Origin: Reticulascus tulasneorum
Taxonomy: Eukaryota > Ascomycota > Sordariomycetes > Glomerellales > Reticulascaceae
Reading direction: 5' to 3'
Assembly: GCA_001557505.1 (NCBI GenBank)
Contig: LSAX01000005.1
Coordinates: forward strand, 868,001-932,000
Length of the DNA: 64,000 bases
This document shows positions 14,887-60,510 of the stretch, one piece after another (position 1 is the first letter of the stretch; every line of letters starts with the position of its first letter). The notes beneath the pieces were generated by a model. It worked only from the letters and a program-made list of their open reading frames with translations. It was not told the origin of the DNA and searched no databases. The translations under genes were made by a program, and so were the position numbers.

Positions 14887-16626
14887 CGCAAGAGCAAGAA
14901 CCGGTGCAAAGGATCGCAACGAGTGAGTGGGCGGCCTTTGACGAGCTAGGCGTGGAAAGTGTAAGGTCTTATGCCGGGGGCGATGACTTGACAAACGTAC
15001 GCTGATGGGGCCTACGAATGTCTGCAACTTGGAAAAGGAGCAGGTCTTTGACGCCGTGAGATAGTCCTATTGACCTCGGGTACGGCCAGCCATATTATCG
15101 AGCGACAGAACTGGATACGACCTGAGTATGCGGTGATTGCCATAGCGGTCGCGGCTTAGCTGACTGGCTGGCCAGGAGAGTCTGTTCGGTACGAGCAATT
15201 AAGTCCCGAACGACATGCCAAGGGTTGAGGCCATCATCAAGCATTGCAAAAGTGCCTTTGGAGGCGCAATAGCACGGCTGACATCAGTTCTGGCACGTCC
15301 GCCGTTTGGACCGGTGAGTGCCGTAAACAGGGGGGGGCCGCACCTAGGCCTTCGGTGTAATATCGGTCGATATAGCGCATAAGTCTAATGGCATATGCTG
15401 GGGTGGATGACAATTGACTTACCGGAGTTATGGGTTTGTAGCACGTGAAGGCGCGTTTCTTGGCATGAAAGATTACTCCTGTTTCGTCAAAGAAACCCTG
15501 TTTGGGAGGCAATCTGATGTTGAAAATAAACTTTCAGCCGCTCGTAAAGGGGGACGAGAAACAGCCCCTCGCCAATGGAGTTGCTTACCGGCTCGGAGCC
15601 CGCCTATCTGAATATTACCTCAGACCACACAAACTCTCTATCGTCAACTCGCCTCCGAGTAATTAAACCCACATGCATTAGGGCAAGGACGGAGTAAGAG
15701 CATGAGTTGCGACGGTTGAAGAGACATCCTGCTAAATATGGTAATCCAAAGGACTTGAATAAAACTGCTACGTAGCAACGTTGCATACTGGTCTCTAAGG
15801 TTAACAAGCTAATTAATAGAGGTTACATTATAGGCAAACTCGTCAGAGACTCCGTACGGGATGTTAACGCAAAAAGCCAAAATAACGAGCTTGACTACTG
15901 GGAATCGAGACACAGCTGTCGTAGCGGTGCTACAATGGCCTTCTGTGGAATAATTCTATGTATCTAGTTCTAGTTGGGGAAAGTTAGTATGAAGACGTGT
16001 TTTTGGTGCAGTACTTGCAGAACTCGCTTGATTTCTGCCTAATAACTCGAGTGGGTGGGGCCGCGCCGTCAGAAAAAAGCATCTATTGTTGTCGGATTAA
16101 TGTGATTTTAGTGCTTATGTCAGAACTGAATGCCATTGTGGAATGCGGACAGCCGCCTGCCAAGAGAACCTAGAATCTCACAGGAAATTAAAAGCATCAG
16201 CTGGGGTGATGGATTACGAGCATGGCCCTCGGCCGCCGGACCGGAGTGGATCTGGAAACGTCCTTGCTGGTAACCCCGGGAGGGATGGCAACGGTGTGGT
16301 GTAGTAAGCCTCGTGAACGCTGCCTCCTTTCCCATGCACTCCCTGACCCCTGAGGACAGATACATTTTCGTGACGGTCAAAGCCAGCAGTCGAGTGTTCT
16401 CTTTGAAATCATGAATAGCAAATCTGCTTGTTAGTTTATTTCAAGACGGGTCGCATTGTGCAATTACAACAGCATCGGCCCACCAAGTCCTCGACTATCT
16501 GGTCTGCTCCTCGACTGTGTCTCTTCTCTACCCTCTTCTCGTTCAAGTTGCCTGGTCCACCAAATAGCCTTGCTTGCGTCTATTAGTCCTTGACGGTCTC
16601 TTTGCGCACCTCTCCCTATCCTTAGC
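14887..16626. promoter_or_regulatory. Divergent intergenic region between secreted protein and chitinase
   Basis: This 1.74-kb gap lies between two divergent starts. ORFs inside lack domains. A CT-rich stretch at 16500-16626 suggests the chitinase 5' UTR. No specific operator was identified. Confidence 0.4.
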
Positions 16627-19600
16627 ATGCGCCCCCTTAGGCTTGAAGGCCTACGGGCAGCCACCACCGTCGCAGTATGGACTAGCTGCCTTGCACTACG
16701 CTGCGCTGCGCAGGGCACGGATGCAGCTCTAGAAGAGTCTCTAGAAGGTGTTGAGGATTTCAATAACTACTACGCCGATCTTCATCCATGCCCTGTTGCC
16801 TGCGAAAACCAGTCGCCATCCAATTGGACTGTTTACACGTCCTACAACCGCCTCCAACAATGCGACGAGCCACTCTTGTTTGATTTTGCGCTGTATAATC
16901 CGGTAGCGGATCCGGACACTCCGACCAAGCTTCGTGTCTGCACGGCTGGAAATGCTGATTCAACCGCCAATGCTCTGTTCAATGGGACAAATCCTGCCAT
17001 CATCCAACGTGATGACACCGACTCGGCCTGCAACGCTGCGAGAGCTGCCGTGCAGGGCAGCGCCACGTTTGAGCTCACACAAAGCGGTGTGGAGCCGGAA
17101 GAGGAGAAGAGGAGCGCCGTCACCAAGGCAATCGAAAATCTCCAAGCCCATTTCGAGGCGGAAAATACCGCTTGCTCCGAGACTGTCATGTTTGGATATT
17201 ACCAAGGCGTTATAACCGGCATCTACGTCGGACAATCCTTCGGTAGAGCCACAGTCCCGTCCGCGGCAAAGGGTTTGCTCGAACATATCGGCTCTGCTGG
17301 CGGGCTGGCAGCAACTTCGGCGGCCCAACTCTGCGGAAATGGTCGCAATGCCCATCATGTCCTCGGACTTGTTGTCAACACCGCCGGCAATATCACAGCC
17401 GTTCAAAACGCTGTTAAGGGCTGGAATGAGGCCAAATGCGTGACGAAATTCGAGTCCAAGGCAGAGCTCAAGGACGTGAAGGTCTGGGAAGATAGGACTG
17501 ACCTGGATCCCTTCCCGGGCGAGCCCTCTGGCAACACTACCACATCCAACTCCACCATACGCACAGGGAAGTCCGAATTGCACGCTCGCCAGTCTGGAAC
17601 TTGTCGAACAACTAAAGTCGTCTCTGGTGATAGCTGCAGTTCCTTGGCAGCAAGATGTGGTATTTCCGCCGCCGACTTCACCAAGTACAACCCAAGCCCC
17701 AGCCTTTGTTCTTCTCTTGTGCCCGGCCAGATGGTGTGCTGCAGCTCAGGCTCCCTGCCCGACATCAGACCCCAGCCTAACGCAGATGGTACCTGTGCCA
17801 CCCATCTGGTGGTAAATGAGGATTCTTGCTTCGGCCTCGCGGCATCCAACGGCCTCACGCCCAATGATATTGACAGATTTAACAATGGTACCACCTGGGG
17901 TTGGTACGGTTGCAACAGGCTGCTGACGGGTATGTACGTCTGCCTTTCCACGGGAAAACCCCCAATGCCATATCCAATTTCCAATGCCGTGTGCGGTCCC
18001 TTGAAACCTGGGTCGAAGCCGCCGACGGGCAGCCAGCAATTAAAAGACCTCAATCCCTGTCCCTTGAACGCCTGCTGCAACGTATGGGGACAGTGCGGTA
18101 CGTTGACTCTACTAAATTTTGCTTGTTAAAATGCTGTTCCGCCACTGACTAACTATACCCCAGGCATCAGCGGAGACTTCTGCACGGAGGAAAAGAGCGC
18201 CTCCGGCAATCCAGGCACTTCCGGACGCCAGGACGGCTGTGTATCTAGCTGCGGCGTGGATATCAGGAACGGAGGCTCTGCACCAGCATCGTTCGGACGC
18301 ATCGGATACTATGAGACATGGAACTTCCACCGGCAGTGCCTCTACCAGCACGTCGAAAATTCCAATACGGACGGCACTTATACTATTATCCACTGGGCAT
18401 TTGCAGAGGTTAATCCTTCTGATTGGACCGTTAAGATTGTGGATGACTTCCAACAGTGGGAAAAGTTTAAGAAGATCTCGGCCAAGAAAGTTATCTCTTT
18501 TGGTGGCTGGGGATATTCGACTGAACCTGGAACATATGATATACTGCGACAGGGCATGAGCCCAGCGAACAGAGATAGATTCGCGTCGAATATTGCAGCG
18601 TTTTTGAACAGGGAGGGACTTGACGGTGTAGACTTGGACTGGGAATATCCTGGTGTGAGTATTATATTCCGTGGAATCCTAGCTCTGTGGTTGTGGTCAA
18701 ACTGACGCGAGTGGTCACTGCAAAGGCTATCGACATACCTGGAACACCGCCAGGTCAAGTTGCGGATGGCCCCAACTACCTCAAGTTCCTGACCACCATG
18801 AAGTCGAAGCTATCCCCAGGGCAGACAATCTCTATTGCTGCCCCAGCCAGCTTCTGGTACCTCAAGTCTTTCCCAATTCAAAAAATGGCAGAGCAGTTAG
18901 ACTACATTGTCTATATGACTTATGACCTACATGGTGAGTTCAGCGCAAATGGAACGCCGCAACTTCCCGCCTGACTGACACTTTTAAGGACAATGGGATG
19001 CTGGGAACCGGTATGCGGTCGACGGCTGCCCAACAGGAAACTGTGTGAGAAGTCACGGTATGAACCCTTTATGCTTGGCCCCTTTCTCGGTTATACACAG
19101 CTTGTGCTCACATTAGTCATCTCGCTAGTCAATCTGACCGAGACTGGATATGCTCTAGCCATGAGTAAGTGGTCTGCGATGCCCAACATGTGCACCATGC
19201 TTGATTTGCTAACCATCTGCTATGTTTCTAGTCACAAAAGCAGGTGTTCCAACTAACAAGATATATGTCGGCGAGTCCAGTTACGGACGCAGCTTCAAGC
19301 TGGAGCAGGCAGGGTGCAAGGGCTCGATGTGCAAATTCCTAGGCGGCTGGCTTGACTCTCCAGCGGCAGTCGGCCGCTGCACTCAGGAGCCCGGCTACAT
19401 TTCGAATGCCGAAATCGACGAGATAATTGCCTCCTATGATCCTGATCCGGAGGTCGGCACCATCCAAGTTGAGACGTGGCATGACGGTGATTCCAACTCG
19501 GACATGATGATATATGACGGTTAGTCTCGCCTCTTTCTTGCGACATATACTTTTCGCTTTTTACTGACATGATCTCCTGCCAGGAACGGAGTGGGTTGCT

Positions 19601-48565: not shown

Positions 48566-49980
48566 TTGCTGAGGCTCGCAAACCTACTAGAGTTGCTCTA
48601 TTTAATGCCTTAATTGGTGAAAAAAACTCAAAATGAGGAAGAAACTTGCGATATGTGGTGCCTTACAGTGTAGTGGCTAGTTGGTCTTGGCTAGTTAATG
48701 AACCGCACAGTGGATGCTTCTTCTCGGATCTCATTGCGACTTATACTTCATATCTTGAGAGTGCGTAGACGACCAGTCCATCATGATGCCCATACTCTCA
48801 TGCCCAAGTGGAACCGGTATCAAAGACCAATTTCCACCGAACTTCTCCTGACGCGCCTAGCTTCTCGGCAGCCTATTCCCCAGACCTGTACGACGCATGC
48901 GGCTGCGCATATTGTCGCGGTGCGCTAATCCGCTCGAGGCAACAGATCGATTAACGACTACGGGCGGCTAGATATATAGCTAGAGCCAAGCCAATCTATT
49001 GTTTTGGATCTCGTTGGCTGTGGCTATAAAGCATACGATTATGCAGCCACGGCGCAATTGTGCATATACGTCGTTTCTCATCTAGGGAGGCTTCAAATAT
49101 CAGGCCTGTATTGAGATGCCCTTATTGGGTGAACTCAAGTGGTTGCATAAATAGGGGCCGGACCCAGCGCAACTCGTCGCTGCGGTGTGGCGCTTGCATA
49201 ACCGCCGGGTCACATTCGTTTGCGCATACCTCGCCAATCCGGGCGACAATGATTGGACAATTATATCTTGGGGGCGACGAGATGCCTTCTGCTCTTGCAC
49301 CGGAGATAAGCTCCGGCCAGGTGCTGCGCCCACCAATCTGGTTTCATCGCTTCAGGTATGTGGTTGGAATGGCGATGTTGGGAATCATGGGTTGGCATCG
49401 CCAGCCAGTGAGTCACGTGCAGCGCCGGGTGTGCTGAAGGACCAAAGGTAAGCAGCGGGACCAAGAGAAATCGAGCAGGAAAGTCCCGAGAAGCCTTATA
49501 CCGTCGAATCCATATTCGAAATCGGTGTCTCGAGGGTGGTCAGCTCGGATTCATGCCACCTGACTCCGTGACACGTTCGCGTTCAAGTTGTCGACGTGAC
49601 TGGCGCAAATAGCGGGTTGAGACATTTGGCCTATCAGAGTCACGCGGCCCCACGACAGCTGGACTCGTGGTGCATTTCTCGGGCGGCGAACATGTGCCAA
49701 AGTGCTCGAACCGTCGTATAAGTCTACAGATACTCCCTAAATGCGCTTTCTAGAGATTAACAGACAAAAACAATCGAATTCAGGGTCTAAAGGCTTTCCC
49801 CGCCCTTAGTTTTTCATTTCTGCATTCACAACACGCTTCGGTCCGGCCAGTACAAGTTCATCCCAGTAACATCGGTCCAAAGGAAAAGAAGAAGAGAAAA
49901 TACAAGTTCCATCGATAATTCAGACAAGCGAAGAAATCAACGGATCAGAGCCGATTGTCTGGAATTGTTTTAAGAGTTCG
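48566..49980. other. Intergenic, 1.4 kb
   Basis: ORFs up to 125 codons lack domains. Near 49800-49980 the sequence is CT- then A-rich, fitting the promoter and leader of the next gene. Confidence 0.4.
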
Positions 49981-50718
49981 ATGCCTCGGAACAATGCATA
50001 TGGCTACCCAGCTCTTAAGGGAGCAAGGAAGCATCCGCTCGGAGCTCCGACCATGCCTCTGAAGCGCACAAATCAAATGACACGGTTTCGGCCCCGGGAG
50101 TCTAGTAGGCTTCTTGGTAATGGCGCTCATCAATCCTTAGGAACATATCGGCCATATCCTGCGTTGTCCAGACGTAACAGGCCATATCGATCCTTCCGTG
50201 GGCGATCCGGTGGTTTCAACAGACGTCGGCCGGGAAGAACTCGGGGAAACCAGGTCGGGGGCACGGCGATGAGCGGCTTCAGGGCTTTCCGAACGGGCTA
50301 CTCCAAGTTCCAGGCCCTTTACGGCGGCATCGCCTTCAGCACGAGCATTTTCTTTGCCATCATGAGGTTCAATAATCTTCGAGGCGCAATCGACGACGTG
50401 GAGGAGGAATGTGGCCACGCCGATGTGATTATTGCTCAACTTGATGCGGTACTCGAGGACACAGAAGCCGTGGAGAGTTCGAAGATGGACTCTGCGAGCC
50501 GGAAACTCCTAGCCAAGCTCCAACGCGCAAGAAAGAGCATCACCGGGATTGTCAAGGATCTGCGGGGCCGGGTTGGGAAGTACGATCGGGAAAACTTAAC
50601 GATAGTGGACAAGACTCGCTTCCTCGCTAGCGACTCGAGCAAGGTCTCAAGGCTTAGGATACGGCTGCGGCAGGACCTGGACAATCTGCATGACCTTGTG
50701 GTCTGGCTCGGCAGGTAA
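49981..50718 (+). CDS. Basic membrane protein with helical C-terminal domain
   Basis: Single exon, 245 aa. Residues 1-95 are strongly basic and rich in Arg, Gly and Pro (GFNRRRPGRTRGNQ). A probable transmembrane helix follows (about 110-126, LYGGIAFSTSIFFAIM). The C-terminal about 115 residues are helical with regular Leu/Val/Ile spacing and end KTRFLASDSSKVSRLRIRLR...LHDLVVWLG. That last pattern, an aromatic/Lys block followed by a kV..L...L helix, loosely resembles the N-terminal helical domains of fungal STAND/NLR proteins (PigL_N/SesA/HeLo-like). I cannot confirm homology; the function is unknown. Confidence 0.6.
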   Translation: MPRNNAYGYPALKGARKHPLGAPTMPLKRTNQMTRFRPRESSRLLGNGAHQSLGTYRPYPALSRRNRPYRSFRGRSGGFNRRRPGRTRGNQVGGTAMSGFRAFRTGYSKFQALYGGIAFSTSIFFAIMRFNNLRGAIDDVEEECGHADVIIAQLDAVLEDTEAVESSKMDSASRKLLAKLQRARKSITGIVKDLRGRVGKYDRENLTIVDKTRFLASDSSKVSRLRIRLRQDLDNLHDLVVWLGR

Positions 50719-54141: not shown

Positions 54142-57100
54142 CTATCGAGCGGATAAAGGAAATGCCGGACCTCTGAGTGGGCCAGTTATAAAGCCAAGCC
54201 TGTTGAAAGCCGGTACACCCACGGGATTGCCATACCTCCTTCGAAGTAAGAATCTTCCTGTGCATATGCACATAAAATACGGGAATACTGGTCCGGAGCC
54301 TCCCAGGCCGAAAGGATAGGGGATCCAATTTCCGAGTCTCCGCGCCGCGCCGATTTCCTCCATTGCTAACGCTTTCCTCCCTCGGAGCAAGAGGGCAATC
54401 TTGTTGCGCCCATCGACGAATTGTCGCACAAGCTCCTGTGTTGGGCCTCCTGTAATATTTCGAAAATGGTATGGCGGAGGCGCGAACGATGCATCTAACG
54501 GTGTTCCATGGGGTGACTTTGCATTGATGTCTGCGCCGGCCGAGAGGAGGATCTCGACGTATTCGTAGTTGCCCATGTACACAGCATTGTGCAGAGCAGT
54601 GGCTCCATTAGAGTTTCTTGCATTGACATGCTCTGGGCCACGAAACCGGCTGAGAATGAGTTCGAGAACAGGGCGTTGCCCGAAGTTGACGAGTGCGTGT
54701 GGTGCAAATGAGAGATCTTCAACTAGGATGTGAAGGGCGGATGTATGTATGTTGCTGGTTGGGAAGATATTGAAGAACTCAGTAGCGGTTGGAGGTAAAG
54801 TGAAAAGCCACTCCAAACCATTTATGTTAGTCTTCCAGGCCTTATGATGGCTAATCGTGTACCCGAAAAAAGACATCGCGCCTTGTTGCCCCAGATTGTT
54901 CTCCATAGGTATATATGAGTTTCGACCGAGCGTGGATTTAAACTCATCCTCGGTCATACCAGACACAAGCCTTTCAGCAATCCTTATATTGCCGTGCAAT
55001 ATTGCCGAGTGTATAGGTAGCAACCCAGAGTGGTTTCTCGTATCCAATGGGCAATTGTATTGGAGAAGAATGTCCAGTATTTCTGGATTGTCTGGCCCAG
55101 TAACGAGATCAAACACTGCACTGCTCCGCTCGCCGTCGTCATCGTATCCGATCTCGGATCCTCGTCTCGCGAGGCACTCAACGACCGCAGCATCGTTTCT
55201 CTCTATTGCAACGTCCATCAGGCCGTATCCAAACGTCTGCCACTGGTGCCCGGTGACAGTCGTATCTCCAGTTATAGAGGGAGGTTCGAGCCGCTTCGTA
55301 GCCTCATCGATCCAATCCAAAATGCAAACAATCATATTCAAGGGTAGTGACTGGACGGCAATTCTCAATGGTATCCAGACCATATCCCCTATATCAGCCG
55401 TAGACGTCATTTTGGGCAGACTGTTCAAGATCGCCTGAATAATACGGATCTCTTCTTGCTCGGAAACATCCAAAATGAGCCGCTGCGTGGCCGTCACGTC
55501 ACTAAAGAACACAGAGAAAAGGCGCAAGTCTCCTGGTAGCTCTCCGGCTGCATTCAGGCAAAGCTGGAGACTGACAACGTCCCGAACCATAACTGCGCGT
55601 TCGATGGGTGATGTGTGGGTTTCGTACTGGAACATCGGATTAGCCCCTTGGTGGAGTAGTAATCGAACCATAGGCCTATTTTGAGTCTGGATAGCCCAAT
55701 CAAGTGGTGTTCCGGGTAAAAGAGAGTCTCTTGGACCGAGAACATTAAATCCCGGAATCCTCCCCGGGTAGAATCGTATGTCCGTAGCGAGGGCATCAAT
55801 GTTCGCACCTCTGGCTAATAGCATCTGGGTGTGGACGTGGCAGTCGCTACCAAGAGCCAACCAGTGCAACGCGGTTTCTCCCCCCTTCCCGGCTGGTGTC
55901 TTCACTGAGGCTCCGTTCTCTAGTAGGAACATCACTATTTTCAGTCTTCCAGCACGGCAAGCAAGCAGTAGTGGCGTTTCACCCTGTGCATTGGGTTCGT
56001 TGATTGCATCCGGAAACCGATCGATATACTTCTGGCAAAATTCGAGAGGCTGCGCCCAGTTTGACACGGCGATATGGAACAAAGTATTGTTTTTCAATAT
56101 GTAAGACAGTGAGTCGCTGAACTCAACAGGCTCAGTGCCATAGAGCAAGTCTCTCCCCCGCGCCCAAATACTCGCTTGGCTCTCAAGACCGCGGAGGGTT
56201 TCGAGCTGGGCTAGCACTCCTCTTATCTGAGAGGTTGTCCAACGCCCAATCTCACCCCCAGCGATCCATTGATCCAGGGAAAAGTTTGTCCCCATCATCA
56301 TAGAACGAGCTTCGTCCGTGGCCACCAGTAACTTGGGATGGGTTAGTTGGAGGACTCTCCGAGCAGCTTGCGATCCGAACAAGAGAACAGATTGCACCAG
56401 CCACTTTGTGCATGGAAGATGAGTCGGCAGGTTTCCATGCTTCCGGAAGTAGAGAGCCGGTGCAAAAGATTGCAAGACCAATGACCCTGATTGTGCTGCT
56501 TTCAGTAACCAATTTAACGCAGAATCTTCACTCTTGGCATCAACTCCGTATCCATCCACTTCGCAGAAAAAAAGATTTATGGCCATAAAGGGAACATCGG
56601 AAACAATTTGAAGGAGCTCGGAAGATGTACTCCAAGCCAATGCGTTATTAGCTGAGACACAGCTGTGAGTCGATCTGAATGAAGTAAGAAACATTTCGGA
56701 TATTGTTTCGACCGTGGGCTCGTTATGACGGTCGGGAGGACCATCTACCAACGAGAGCTCACAGCAGGCTTGACAAAACGAAAAGTCTGTCTGATACCAT
56801 CTCCGAATTAGGGAACTAATCTCCTTGAAAACCTTCTGTCGGGTTCGTTCTCCAGACCGGAGTCGCACATCCTTCAATTCTTTATTCACAATGTATTTCT
56901 ACACCTAAGTCAGCGTGATCGATACCCGAATAACAGATGGACTTACTAAATTGAATCCGAGTGCATGAGAGAGCTCCAGCTGTAACACAGGATTGTTTAC
57001 CGAGTTTGCGTGAGGCTCGGCCTCGGACTCTTCGCTATATCCGACCGTCAGCTAGAGAAAGAAGTTTAATAGCGGAAAGTACAAGATACGAACAGTGGAG

Positions 57101-58373
57101 TCTCAATCCCTAGACGCTGTAGCTGGACCTTGAAAAGCTCATCGGACATTTCCATTCGATACTCTGGATTTGGATGAAGTAAAATGCGCAGGGCATCAAA
57201 ACAGTCGTCACGAAAGGTATCGCGGTCAACAAACAAATGTCCAAGATCTATCTCGGCTAATCTTGCCAGCTCGTTGGTCTCTTTGAGCCGTTGAATTGTC
57301 TCGTGTGACATTGCTCTTGCTATCCTCTTCAATTCCGCCTCTTCGTCCCGGCGTGGTGAGTGGCCCGTTGCTATCTCTCCCCAAGTGTGTTCGTCGATCT
57401 GTCGTTGACGGAGGGTGATCCACTCATCTTCCAAGTTATATATTTCTCGGAACGGGCTCATGCCATTGCGAAGAGTAACCCATAGCAATAGGCCAAACGA
57501 AAAGATGTCTGCGGCAGGAGCCCACTGTGCCTTGATCTTCTTAGGTTTACCGTCCTCTCCAACGCACTAGGATCGTCATTTCGAGTCCGTATAGGATCAC
57601 GAAAGGTTTAAGCTTACCTCAGGAGCACGCCACGGGTCAGTCCCTGCAATTTGAAGCATCGAATCGTCCAAAACATCGAACCTCACGGAGCTACCAAAAT
57701 CGGAGACCTTAGGGACTAAGGATCCCTCCCCGATGCTTTTTATCAAAATGTTTTCGCATTTAATGTCTCCATGCACAAAGCCTGCTGAGTGCATGGCATC
57801 AAGCCCCTGGCCGATCGCAACAAAAAGCTCGGTTTTCGTGTTTATTGTCAGTTTCTGGGCCCTGAGCAGCTCCATGAGAGTGCAATCGCAGTACTCGGTT
57901 ACAAGTGTAGGCCACAGCGCTCCCGCGCTGTCTCGATCTTCCCAGATTACAGCATGCAGCTTGACAAGATATTCAATGTCGCGAAGCCGCGGGGCCGTCA
58001 TAACCTTGATTTCGTTCATCGCCGCTCTAAGCACGCTGCTCTCTTGGTTGTCCTTCATTGGCGTGATTCTTTTAAGAGCAACTATTGTGCCGCGGTCCAA
58101 CATTTCCTTAGTGTAAGTGTTCATGGTCTCCATCCGATCCTCTGGACTGTCTATGATGTATCTGTATACCACGGAGTGGGTTCCTCTGCCAACGAAATGG
58201 CCAAGACTAGAGAATTTTTTCCGAGCCATTGATATACCTGATCGTTGGATCTGTTGTAGGAAAAGAAACCAAGGTAGTCCATCTTCGAAGCTTCTTCGGT
58301 CGGTCTCTATCTCTGGTCCATCTGAGTCCGTCTGTCTTGAGTCCGGAGAAAAGTCGAACAGGAGTGCTGCCAT
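54142..58373 (-). CDS. Protein kinase - ankyrin-repeat protein
   Basis: Four exons on the minus strand: 58373-57618, 57566-57090, 57051-56947, 56898-54142; 1364 aa; all junctions phase 0. The kinase domain (about 50-410) is complete: GRGTHSVVY loop, VALKR (K101), helix-C Glu (E121), HGDIKCEN (D203, N208), DFG (225-227), and GTDPWRAPE, where the first intron falls right after APE. A middle region (about 411-750) is helical with Cys-rich FSFCQACCEL. Ankyrin repeats follow (GETPLLLACRAGRLKIVMFL, GETALHWLALGSDCHVHTQML, GTPLDWAIQTQNRPMVRLLL, LLPIHSAILHGNIRIAERL, GATALHNAVYMGNYEYVEIL). The second intron is only 38 nt; if not real, kinase and ankyrin parts are separate genes. Divergent from the HeLo-pseudokinase gene, 430 bp apart. 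Likely an intracellular signalling kinase with a recognition array. Confidence 0.82.
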
Positions 58374-58803
58374 GGCGGTTGAGTTGCATATGTGTCAGAT
58401 TGAGGGTGGCATCTAGGGATTAAGTATAGCCAGTTAAAACATGAATCGTTCAGAAATGACCCTTGGGATTGTCAGTTCATATTAGAAGTTAGGAGAAACC
58501 CCCGAATTAGCGCATTCACATCGTCGCAGGTAAGCGAGACTCACGAGCTGAAAACTGATGGTGGCACGGAATCTGCCCGTTTATGGGCGGAATCTTCCAT
58601 GCTCGTGGCGTCGAATCCAATAAAACGCCTCTCATCTGATCACAAGCTGAGATTCACAGCCTTAGAGCTCACAGCCCCCCACCCCTCGATTCTCTCTCCA
58701 GCTTGCTCTATATCTGGACACGGAAACGAGAATCATTACTATCGACGCATTCTCTCAAATTCGTTCTGGGCAAACCACATCCTTATATTTACATCAAGCT
58801 TTC
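58374..58803. promoter_or_regulatory. Shared divergent promoter of kinase-ankyrin and HeLo-pseudokinase genes
   Basis: The 430 bp between the two ATGs must contain both promoters. The right side is CT-rich (58680-58750), a usual fungal leader. No specific operator identified. Confidence 0.55.
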
Positions 58804-60510
58804 ATGTCGAGAATGGATATCCCAGGTGTGGTGTTTGGTTCGCTCAGCCTCGTCAGCCTCCTTACAACTGTCGAGACTTGCATAAGAGGCTACGATCGAT
58901 TCATTTCTTCAGCTCGGGAAGCGCCGTCAAAATCCAGCAAGTTTGCAATCCACATCAGAATCGAGCAACGAAAGTTCGAACTGTACTGGGAGTATATGGG
59001 GCTCTCTGAAGCGGACTGCCCACTTCTTAGTGAACAGAGTCGCAAAACGCAAGAGCTGATTGTTGACGTCGCGTGCGAGATCAAAGCATTGCTGTCGGAT
59101 GGTCACGTACTCTCCGATCGTTACGGTTTTGAAGGCGTACCAACTAGTGGAACCGGGGATCTCGAGATGGGAGATTTATCTTCGCACCCCATGCCAAATG
59201 CCACAACTATTCTCGGCAGGCTGCGTCAGTCCAACAGCCAGGATTGGTTTGGACCGCGACCAACGCTGACCCGAAGGCAAAGCCTGCGTTGGGTATGGAA
59301 GGATGAGCAGAAGGCCATAGACCTCTTAAGCGAATTGCGTCATTTCAATGAAGAACTCTGGACCTCACTCGCGCCACAACATGAGATCCTTCTGAAGCAA
59401 GGTGAGCCCGCCTGGCTTCTACCTGGACTCAACGATGTTTGGGCCATTCAACGCCTGGCTGGAGCCGGACCTTCAGATTCCGATAATCCCCTCGCGGTAT
59501 GCTCCAGTCTTCGGTCCGCGCGACTTCAAGTTAGTACCATGGAGCGGATTGAAATTCACGAAATGCAGCCAGAGGGCCTGCAATGGAGTACGGGCCACCA
59601 AATCTTGGGCTCCAGCTGCCGAGTGGGATCTCTGAATGGCAAAAATGTGATCGTGGAGTACAAAAAGCTCGCCGCCAGCATTTCCACCAACGATAGGGAC
59701 ATCAGTAAAGAGCGACTTTGTTCTCTTATGACCCTGTTTGCCAGAAAGAACCATCCCATGTTGCGGGTTCTTCGCGGTGTAACCATGTTCACGAATGGAC
59801 TTCATAGCAACGAATTTGGGCTTGTCTTTGAGTGCCCAACACCACTCTCGGGTAATTTCGTGAACTATGTCACTTTAGAACACCTCCTTGCGACAAGGAA
59901 CAACAAGAACGTGCAAGCCCTGGGTCGAAGATACAAGTTGGCCCAAGCACTTGCGAAGTCTATCATGCTCTTGCATGCTTCTGGTTGGTATCACAAAAAC
60001 CTCAAACCCGATGTGATCATGTTCCAGCAGATTGGGAACTCAGAAGTTGACATCACAGAGCCGAGACTCATGGGGTTCGACTTTTCCCGACCAAGCTTGG
60101 AGAGTGAGCCGTCCATCGACAACAGAGAACATTCGCGCTTGGATCTTTATGTTCATCCGCAAAGACAAGGCCAGCATCCGCCACGTTTCCGAGCAGTCCA
60201 CGACTACTACTCACTGGCCATGTGCCTTATCGCAATCATGTGGTGGAGGCCAATCAACTCGGTCGAAAAGAAGTTTAAAGAAGAATACGGGCCAGATGGA
60301 ACAACTCTGCAATGGCAAGAATATATGAAACGCGACACTGAGACTACACTCAAAGCTCTCAGTGGTGAGCTCTATGCGGAAGCCGTTTTGGCATGCTTAA
60401 CCGGACAATTTTCTTCGACTCCCTGGTCTCAGGGCAGTGGTGAGGAGTGGAGCGGCCAGGATGTGTTTTTCACACAGGTGGTAAAGAAGCTTCATATGTG
60501 TCGAGCGTAA
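58804..60510 (+). CDS. HeLo-domain pseudokinase (MLKL-like architecture)
   Basis: Single exon, 568 aa (or 565 from the ATG at 58813, whose product starts MDIPGVVFG like other HeLo proteins). The N-terminus (about 1-240) matches the HeLo/prion-inhibition-and-propagation pattern: a hydrophobic first helix (GVVFGSLSLVSLLTTVETC), then FAIHIRIEQRKFELYWEYMGLSEAD. The C-terminal part (about 260-565) is a kinase fold with degraded catalysis: the VAIK lysine is kept (VEYK, K287), but HRD is HKN (N399 for the catalytic Asp) and DFG is DFS (426-428), and no glycine loop is evident. Family knowledge: HeLo and related four-helix domains permeabilise membranes in fungal incompatibility, and animal MLKL joins such a bundle to a pseudokinase. 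Likely a cell-death executioner controlled by its neighbour; this is inference. Confidence 0.85.
   Translation: MSRMDIPGVVFGSLSLVSLLTTVETCIRGYDRFISSAREAPSKSSKFAIHIRIEQRKFELYWEYMGLSEADCPLLSEQSRKTQELIVDVACEIKALLSDGHVLSDRYGFEGVPTSGTGDLEMGDLSSHPMPNATTILGRLRQSNSQDWFGPRPTLTRRQSLRWVWKDEQKAIDLLSELRHFNEELWTSLAPQHEILLKQGEPAWLLPGLNDVWAIQRLAGAGPSDSDNPLAVCSSLRSARLQVSTMERIEIHEMQPEGLQWSTGHQILGSSCRVGSLNGKNVIVEYKKLAASISTNDRDISKERLCSLMTLFARKNHPMLRVLRGVTMFTNGLHSNEFGLVFECPTPLSGNFVNYVTLEHLLATRNNKNVQALGRRYKLAQALAKSIMLLHASGWYHKNLKPDVIMFQQIGNSEVDITEPRLMGFDFSRPSLESEPSIDNREHSRLDLYVHPQRQGQHPPRFRAVHDYYSLAMCLIAIMWWRPINSVEKKFKEEYGPDGTTLQWQEYMKRDTETTLKALSGELYAEAVLACLTGQFSSTPWSQGSGEEWSGQDVFFTQVVKKLHMCRA

Follow-up and report, generated by a model that had tools for sequence, protein, structure and literature searches.

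In a 64,000-nucleotide stretch of the genome of the ascomycete Reticulascus tulasneorum (contig LSAX01000005.1, positions 868,001 to 932,000; this whole stretch is called the window here), a gene for a protein kinase with a long ankyrin tail (gene A) lies head to head with a gene for a HeLo domain joined to a pseudokinase (gene B), which raises the question of whether the two could form a death switch of the kind represented by RIPK3 and MLKL, as was proposed in an initial annotation. The paired arrangement is genuine and not due to chance, and A and B almost certainly constitute a functional module. The best overall explanation, to which we assign a probability of about 0.55, is that A is a sensor-kinase that drives B, a pseudokinase-gated HeLo executioner. 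The spacing given in the annotation was borne out, the two start codons being 430 bp apart, and the features of the locus are the following.

54142..56898, minus strand: gene A exon 4, which encodes a linker and then the ankyrins of the tail (Ank_2, Ank, Ank_4) and runs to the stop codon
56947..57051, minus strand: gene A exon 3, linker; GT-AG joins picked by eye
57090..57566, minus strand: gene A exon 2, remaining C-lobe of the kinase; GT-AG joins picked by eye
57618..58373, minus strand: gene A exon 1, an N-terminal part followed by the kinase domain as far as APE
58374..58803, no strand: space between the start codons of A and B, 430 bp, a presumed two-way promoter
58804..60510, plus strand: gene B, HeLo-pseudokinase protein of 568 amino acids, single exon
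58843..59382, plus strand: HeLo domain of B, residues 14-193 (Pfam PF14479, 8.7e-15; profile match to HET-s, 2wvo_A)
59518..60507, plus strand: pseudokinase domain of B, residues 239-568 (Lys287, HKN at 397-399, GFD at 424-426)

Gene A encodes a protein of 1364 amino acids in four exons of the minus strand, with a kinase domain followed by a long ankyrin tail. All the kinase motifs are kept (the Gly loop, VALK with Lys101, HGD with Asp203, DFG at 225-227 and APE at 250-252) and ankyrin families match the tail, in agreement with the earlier description of a kinase with complete catalytic residues and a long ankyrin array; judged by these residues, a catalytically intact protein kinase is supported. 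Among the best 60 of 2783 matches of the kinase domain in the PDB, most are of the TK and TKL types (EGFR, JAK1, LRRK2, ZAK/MLT, roco4, RIPK1 and TAK1), with ULK1/2 also present. The suggestion of a RIPK3-like kinase stands as far as an intact kinase partner is concerned; these matches do not point to RIPK3 specifically. The junction between exons 2 and 3 is the less certain one, the splicing script having taken other joins there. The script also removed an intron near the 3' end, unlike the exon 4 chosen here; this end of the gene is supported because the closest relative of A among those listed, P0006, aligns to A residues 450-1362 (56% over 927).

Protein B scores 55.5 bits against the HeLo profile PF14479 (curated cut-off 23.2) and 30.6 bits against PF24476, the DUF7580 profile (cut-off 27). 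Its hydrophobic first helix sits just before and within the HeLo domain, and near the N-terminus the Kyte-Doolittle mean over 19 residues peaks at 1.76, the maximum of the whole protein; across the eight paired B genes described below the N-terminal maxima range from 0.97 to 2.02, with a hydrophobic start in all eight. The HeLo part of B is predicted to be helical at low confidence, and sequence profiles of B-like proteins match HET-s. The rest of the protein has a kinase fold in which Lys287 is retained and HKN and GFD replace the catalytic motifs; the HRD Asp is missing in 15 of the 16 aligned B-like rows. The predicted combination of a HeLo-type N-terminus with a kinase fold that has lost the HRD Asp and kept the VAIK Lys was thus found. 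Eleven residues past GFD lies a candidate phosphoacceptor, Ser437, and a Ser or Thr occupies this column in all 12 rows that have a residue there. Alignments of the kinase fold reach residue 568 of 568, the last helix spanning 548-565, and since B ends with the kinase fold there is no space for a C-terminal amyloid tail of the HET-S type, a statement about room in the protein made with no amyloid predictor applied.

That A and B belong together is supported by the recurrence of the arrangement. The 42.8-Mb genome was searched with PF00069, PF14479, PF24476 and both proteins, and a count made blind to neighbourhood found a divergent PF00069 kinase within 5 kb at 6 of 16 B-like places (the window, C17:2676588 or C17b, C4:923385, C1:4390227 or C1k, C12:4049407 and C16:1339978; loci are named by contig and position). 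With the window excluded, 5 of 15 places were paired where 0.1 would be expected from the 107 kinase genes (binomial P 2.7e-8), and 20,000 random placements, made on the 12 contigs whose length is known, gave 3 at the most. At the non-B-like places, six with DUF7580 and five with HeLo, the count was 0/11. Inspection of the neighbourhoods added two pairs, C34:592799 and C15:3317662, whose kinases are absent from the PF00069 list (Pkinase at 7.4e-13 and PK_Tyr_Ser-Thr at 1.3e-6, respectively). Thus 8 of 14 B-family genes, found with the C4 protein as query, stand head to head with a kinase gene, the window included, and in six of the seven further cases the kinase belongs to the same family as that of A. 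From start codons chosen by hand, the gaps of the eight pairs measure 222, 283, 421, 430, 436, 538, 746 and 1212 bp. The largest is that of C1k, which was retained as a pair even though its kinase lies outside the family of A; the other seven gaps are those of the same-family pairs. The count excludes a tandem kinase gene on C25 and a decayed-looking locus, C12b, and C25:2551598 was scored as kinase-free from the PF00069 list alone.

Several loci around this family depart from the paired layout. At C12b (G000:C12:4773826-4777397) an apparently decayed HeLo-pseudokinase gene with stops lies beside a divergent ankyrin frame with no kinase match, a decay that resembles birth-and-death evolution. 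Near a contig end, at G000:C25:9040-13898, a B-like gene with no Pfam HeLo match and a kinase gene are arranged in tandem; the tail of this kinase appears by eye to consist of WD40 repeats, another repeat type beside the B family. A HeLo gene at G000:C1:4154742-4159148, with a DUF7580-like part that keeps HRD, has a divergent HET-domain neighbour instead of a kinase.

The pair also appears to be linked in a second species. In a protein database of 5.8 billion entries, of which about 8000 candidates were scored per search, the closest listed relative of B was P0001 (64% over 562 aligned residues); the longest contig given for P0001 and for P0006 has 219,847 bases in each case (JGI), and this equal figure implies that the relatives of A and B are linked there. 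The initial annotation had raised the possibility that homologues of the two genes might be unlinked elsewhere, and the outcome was the opposite, with recurrent pairing in this genome and apparent linkage in another. Further relatives of B came from metagenomes, one full-length at 51% and one partial at about 42%, and the nearest named one, a 300-amino-acid HeLo protein of Lasiosphaeria ovina, hints at the Sordariales. A profile search for relatives of B gave 4 matches at E 1e-10 among the 8000 candidates scored. No relative was found in the viral contigs searched, and a fold search in viral proteins returned kinases, nearly all generic.

The paired kinases look like one family, as far as their sequences can tell. 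In a tree of 16 kinases, a 99/96 split sets eight other kinases of the genome apart from a group that comprises the seven paired kinases of the same family and an unpaired one, C17a. A search with the C4 kinase ranked C17b, C34, C17a and C12 first; with the more distant C16 kinase, C17b and C12 came behind three other kinases. Among the seven same-family paired kinases, the VAIK Lys is kept in six (C15 has IACR), the HxD Asp and the DFG Asp in all seven, and the DFG Gly in six (C17b has DFS). Since the paired kinases mostly keep their motifs and nearly all the B-like rows lose the HRD Asp, the catalytic state of each partner fits the role proposed for it. Ankyrins are recognised in six of the eight paired kinases (window, C17b, C4, C34, C12 and C16), and none were found in the frame scanned for the C1k kinase. 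The sole unpaired member of the family, C17a, has HGS for HxD and GFG for DFG, and no HeLo-pseudokinase neighbour was found for it. At this locus (G000:C17:161677-167500) the last part of the ankyrin tail and a HET domain lie in one frame without interruption, and C17a is a possible pseudokinase-ankyrin-HET fusion in which the sensor arm would be joined to another death-associated domain.

The order of the parts suggests a sensor and an executioner: in A, repeats accompany a live enzyme, and in B a dead enzyme would gate a helical domain of the membrane type. We propose that A and B are such a module and belong to a fungal family with multiple copies. Through its ankyrin tail A would recognise a cue or a partner protein, and this recognition would free or concentrate its TKL-type kinase domain. 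The kinase would then engage the pseudokinase of B and most probably phosphorylate the activation loop there, with Ser437 as the candidate site. Once released, the HeLo helices of B would enter membranes, by analogy with HET-S and MLKL, and either kill the cell or wall it off. That A activates B in some manner is probable; that it does so by phosphorylation we put at even odds. Phosphorylation of the activation loop is favoured because Ser or Thr is kept at the position of Ser437 and because the sites of RIPK3 on human MLKL, T357/S358, are six and seven residues past GFE (PMC6013482).

How far the likeness to MLKL extends was examined with three profiles built from B-like proteins: A1 with 16 rows, A2 with the window and six relatives, and A4 with eight paralogues. 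A2 and A4 share no row; A1 contains every row of A4 and nearly all the rows of the two taken together. In hmmsearch against the PDB, mouse MLKL came first with A1, A2 and A4 (E 3.3e-11, 1.5e-4 and 9.3e-11), by a lead of 1 to 5 bits over CLK1, RIPK2 or LIMK1. When the columns of the catalytic loop and of GFx were masked (profile A5, built from five rows of the pseudokinase alone), the top places went to LIMK1, LIMK2, the eIF2-alpha kinases and IRAK4, and MLKL was absent from the best 60 of 308 PDB matches; it was likewise not in the best 50 rows of a fold comparison of B, whose rows are nearly tied. The link to MLKL lies in the degenerate motifs, because masking them removes it, and these shared motifs could be convergent. 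An orthologue of MLKL was considered for the pseudokinase of B and lowered to a resemblance once masking had taken MLKL out of the listed matches. Support for the MLKL-like character first claimed lies in the layout and in the degenerate GFD/GFE motifs, and does not extend to overall homology of the kinase domain. Human MLKL has GFE in place of DFG and an HGK catalytic loop (PMC5104457).

The two systems have in common a helical, killer-type domain followed by a pseudokinase with GFx for DFG, the retention of the active-site Lys with loss of the HRD Asp, and a catalytically intact partner kinase. They differ in that the fungal genes are adjacent and divergent and present in several divergent copies, that the fungal kinase bears ankyrins, and that, with the motifs masked, MLKL does not stand out in overall similarity to the B pseudokinase. 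On sequence grounds, the A/B pair can credibly be proposed as a fungal equivalent of the RIPK3-MLKL death switch. Plant MLKL proteins have a related layout, with a HeLo/RPW8-type domain joined to a kinase-like one. A review considers them bona fide MLKL homologues in plants, and its available portions describe no linked partner kinase for them (PMC12881547).

A number of observations weigh against the sensor-executioner explanation. The blind count is only marginal when compared with the 11 other DUF7580 and HeLo places (Fisher P 0.046, as against 0.005 for 7/13 versus 0/11 with the two added pairs), and for six of the 14 B-like genes no divergent kinase was found, one of the six adjoining a HET gene and another having a tandem kinase gene. 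All the pairs may derive from one ancestral pair, so that the P-values exclude chance adjacency and do not count independent events. Only four of the eight paired B genes (window, C17b, C34 and C15) pass the Pfam cut-off for HeLo; the C4 gene is below the threshold, C16 has no match, and C12 and C1k were unmatched in a six-frame search. On the side of the kinases, that of C1k falls among the eight others in the tree, which took in 8 of the roughly 100 other kinase genes, and that of C15 has a long tail with no Pfam match and no recognised ankyrins. Mirror-tree comparison of A and B distances gave no signal (r -0.03 to 0.20, P 0.22-0.58) at identities of about 20-30%, which are near saturation. 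The column of Ser437 is gapped in 4 of 16 rows. Lastly, sensing, phosphorylation, membrane damage and death are all steps that we infer.

The main rival to phosphorylation, in our view unlikely, is that A controls B without it. The kinase domain of A would dock on B as a scaffold or restraint, with a guard or antidote logic by which loss or alteration of A would free B. A kinase-pseudokinase pairing and tight divergent linkage fit this equally well, and the DFS of C17b and the missing canonical VAIK Lys of C15 suggest that full catalysis may not be needed everywhere. However, key catalytic residues are kept in most of the paired kinases over about 21-28% identity, and a Ser or Thr is retained in the activation loop of B.

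It is less probable still that the pair is a module in which HeLo has no more than an anchoring or assembling role for a signalling complex at the membrane, with an output other than death. HeLo identity is weak in half of the paired genes, and to our knowledge there is no death assay for the B family; on the other hand, HeLo-NACHT and HET genes occur in the same genome.

HeLo executioners in fungi are known to be targeted by NLRs that act through amyloid motifs. HELL and HeLo proteins adjoin NLRs, and HET-S/NWD2, HELLF/FNT1 and HELLP/PNT1 are two-gene clusters (PMC12881547, PMC7885112) that resemble the A/B pair in that the gene of a HeLo or HELL executioner is next to the gene of its sensor (PMC7885112). 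It could be supposed that B too is driven by an NLR or an amyloid template, as in HET-S/NWD2, and that the kinase is an uninvolved neighbour. The genome does have HeLo-NACHT frames: in five cases a HeLo match immediately precedes a NACHT match and shares its strand, and in one case the neighbouring NACHT match is divergent. This last HeLo match, at G000:C2:4277429-4279901, faces away from a 1755-amino-acid NACHT frame in a HET-S/NWD2-like arrangement. This explanation is nonetheless very improbable, given that B has no tail after its pseudokinase, that B-like genes recur with kinases, and that no NACHT match is listed within 30 kb of the eight pairs (searched with PF05729 only and not for NB-ARC, hence a lower bound). 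With HeLo beside NACHT elsewhere in the genome and none listed near the pairs, the kinase seems to stand where the NLR stands in other HeLo modules. As to two unrelated genes that happen to be neighbours, any single pair could arise by chance, but recurrence in this genome refutes coincidence and leaves it a negligible probability, and the equal 219,847 figure, which points to linkage in a second species, also speaks against it.

HeLo modules themselves are known; the pair described here would be a two-gene module of a HeLo executioner with a kinase in place of the NLR. The sensor of the A/B pair is a kinase with ankyrins, unlike that of the HET-S/NWD2-type clusters, and the executioner ends in a pseudokinase and not in an amyloid motif. 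The pair is also comparable to fungal gasdermins, which adjoin proteases with ANK, TPR or WD40 tails (PMC12881547): in both, an enzyme with a repeat tail is encoded beside a membrane executioner in a two-gene cluster, although here a kinase takes the place of the protease and a HeLo-pseudokinase that of the gasdermin. HELL domains joined to kinase or pseudokinase domains appear in the same 2025 review, whose available text mentions no kinase gene beside them (PMC12881547, Fig. 6 legend). The open-licence literature searched brought to light no description of a HeLo-pseudokinase gene with a kinase gene as its partner and no paper naming DUF7580, and the available portions of PMC4859500 and PMC4986451 hold nothing on such a pairing.

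A recurrent kinase partner would mean that the RIPK3-MLKL wiring of a kinase on a pseudokinase on a helical killer exists in fungi too, and common origin and convergence could then be tested directly in genetically easy organisms. A wider claim could equally well be right or wrong: that death switches of a necroptosis-like kind, in which a kinase acts on a pseudokinase, form a repertoire in filamentous fungi, each of them a head-to-head pair of an ankyrin-TKL kinase and a HeLo-pseudokinase. If it holds, it would add a third kind of control of fungal executioners to the NLR-amyloid and protease-gasdermin kinds, and the logic of RIPK3-MLKL would be present in fungi, reached independently or inherited. 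The copies of the pair are many and divergent in sequence and look like immune or incompatibility genes, and DUF7580, a Pfam domain of unknown function, would gain a likely role. Because HeLo-NACHT genes and a HeLo gene with a divergent NACHT neighbour are found in the same genome, the two kinds of control could be compared in one species.

The genome has a large incompatibility and NLR repertoire, with at least 150 HET-domain and at least 77 NACHT matches. Within the window, a 282-amino-acid frame at 49870-50718 on the plus strand, about 3.4 kb past the end of gene A, looks helical by eye and has no Pfam match, and at 16594-18705, also on the plus strand, a LysM frame is followed by a glycosyl hydrolase 18 (chitinase) frame.

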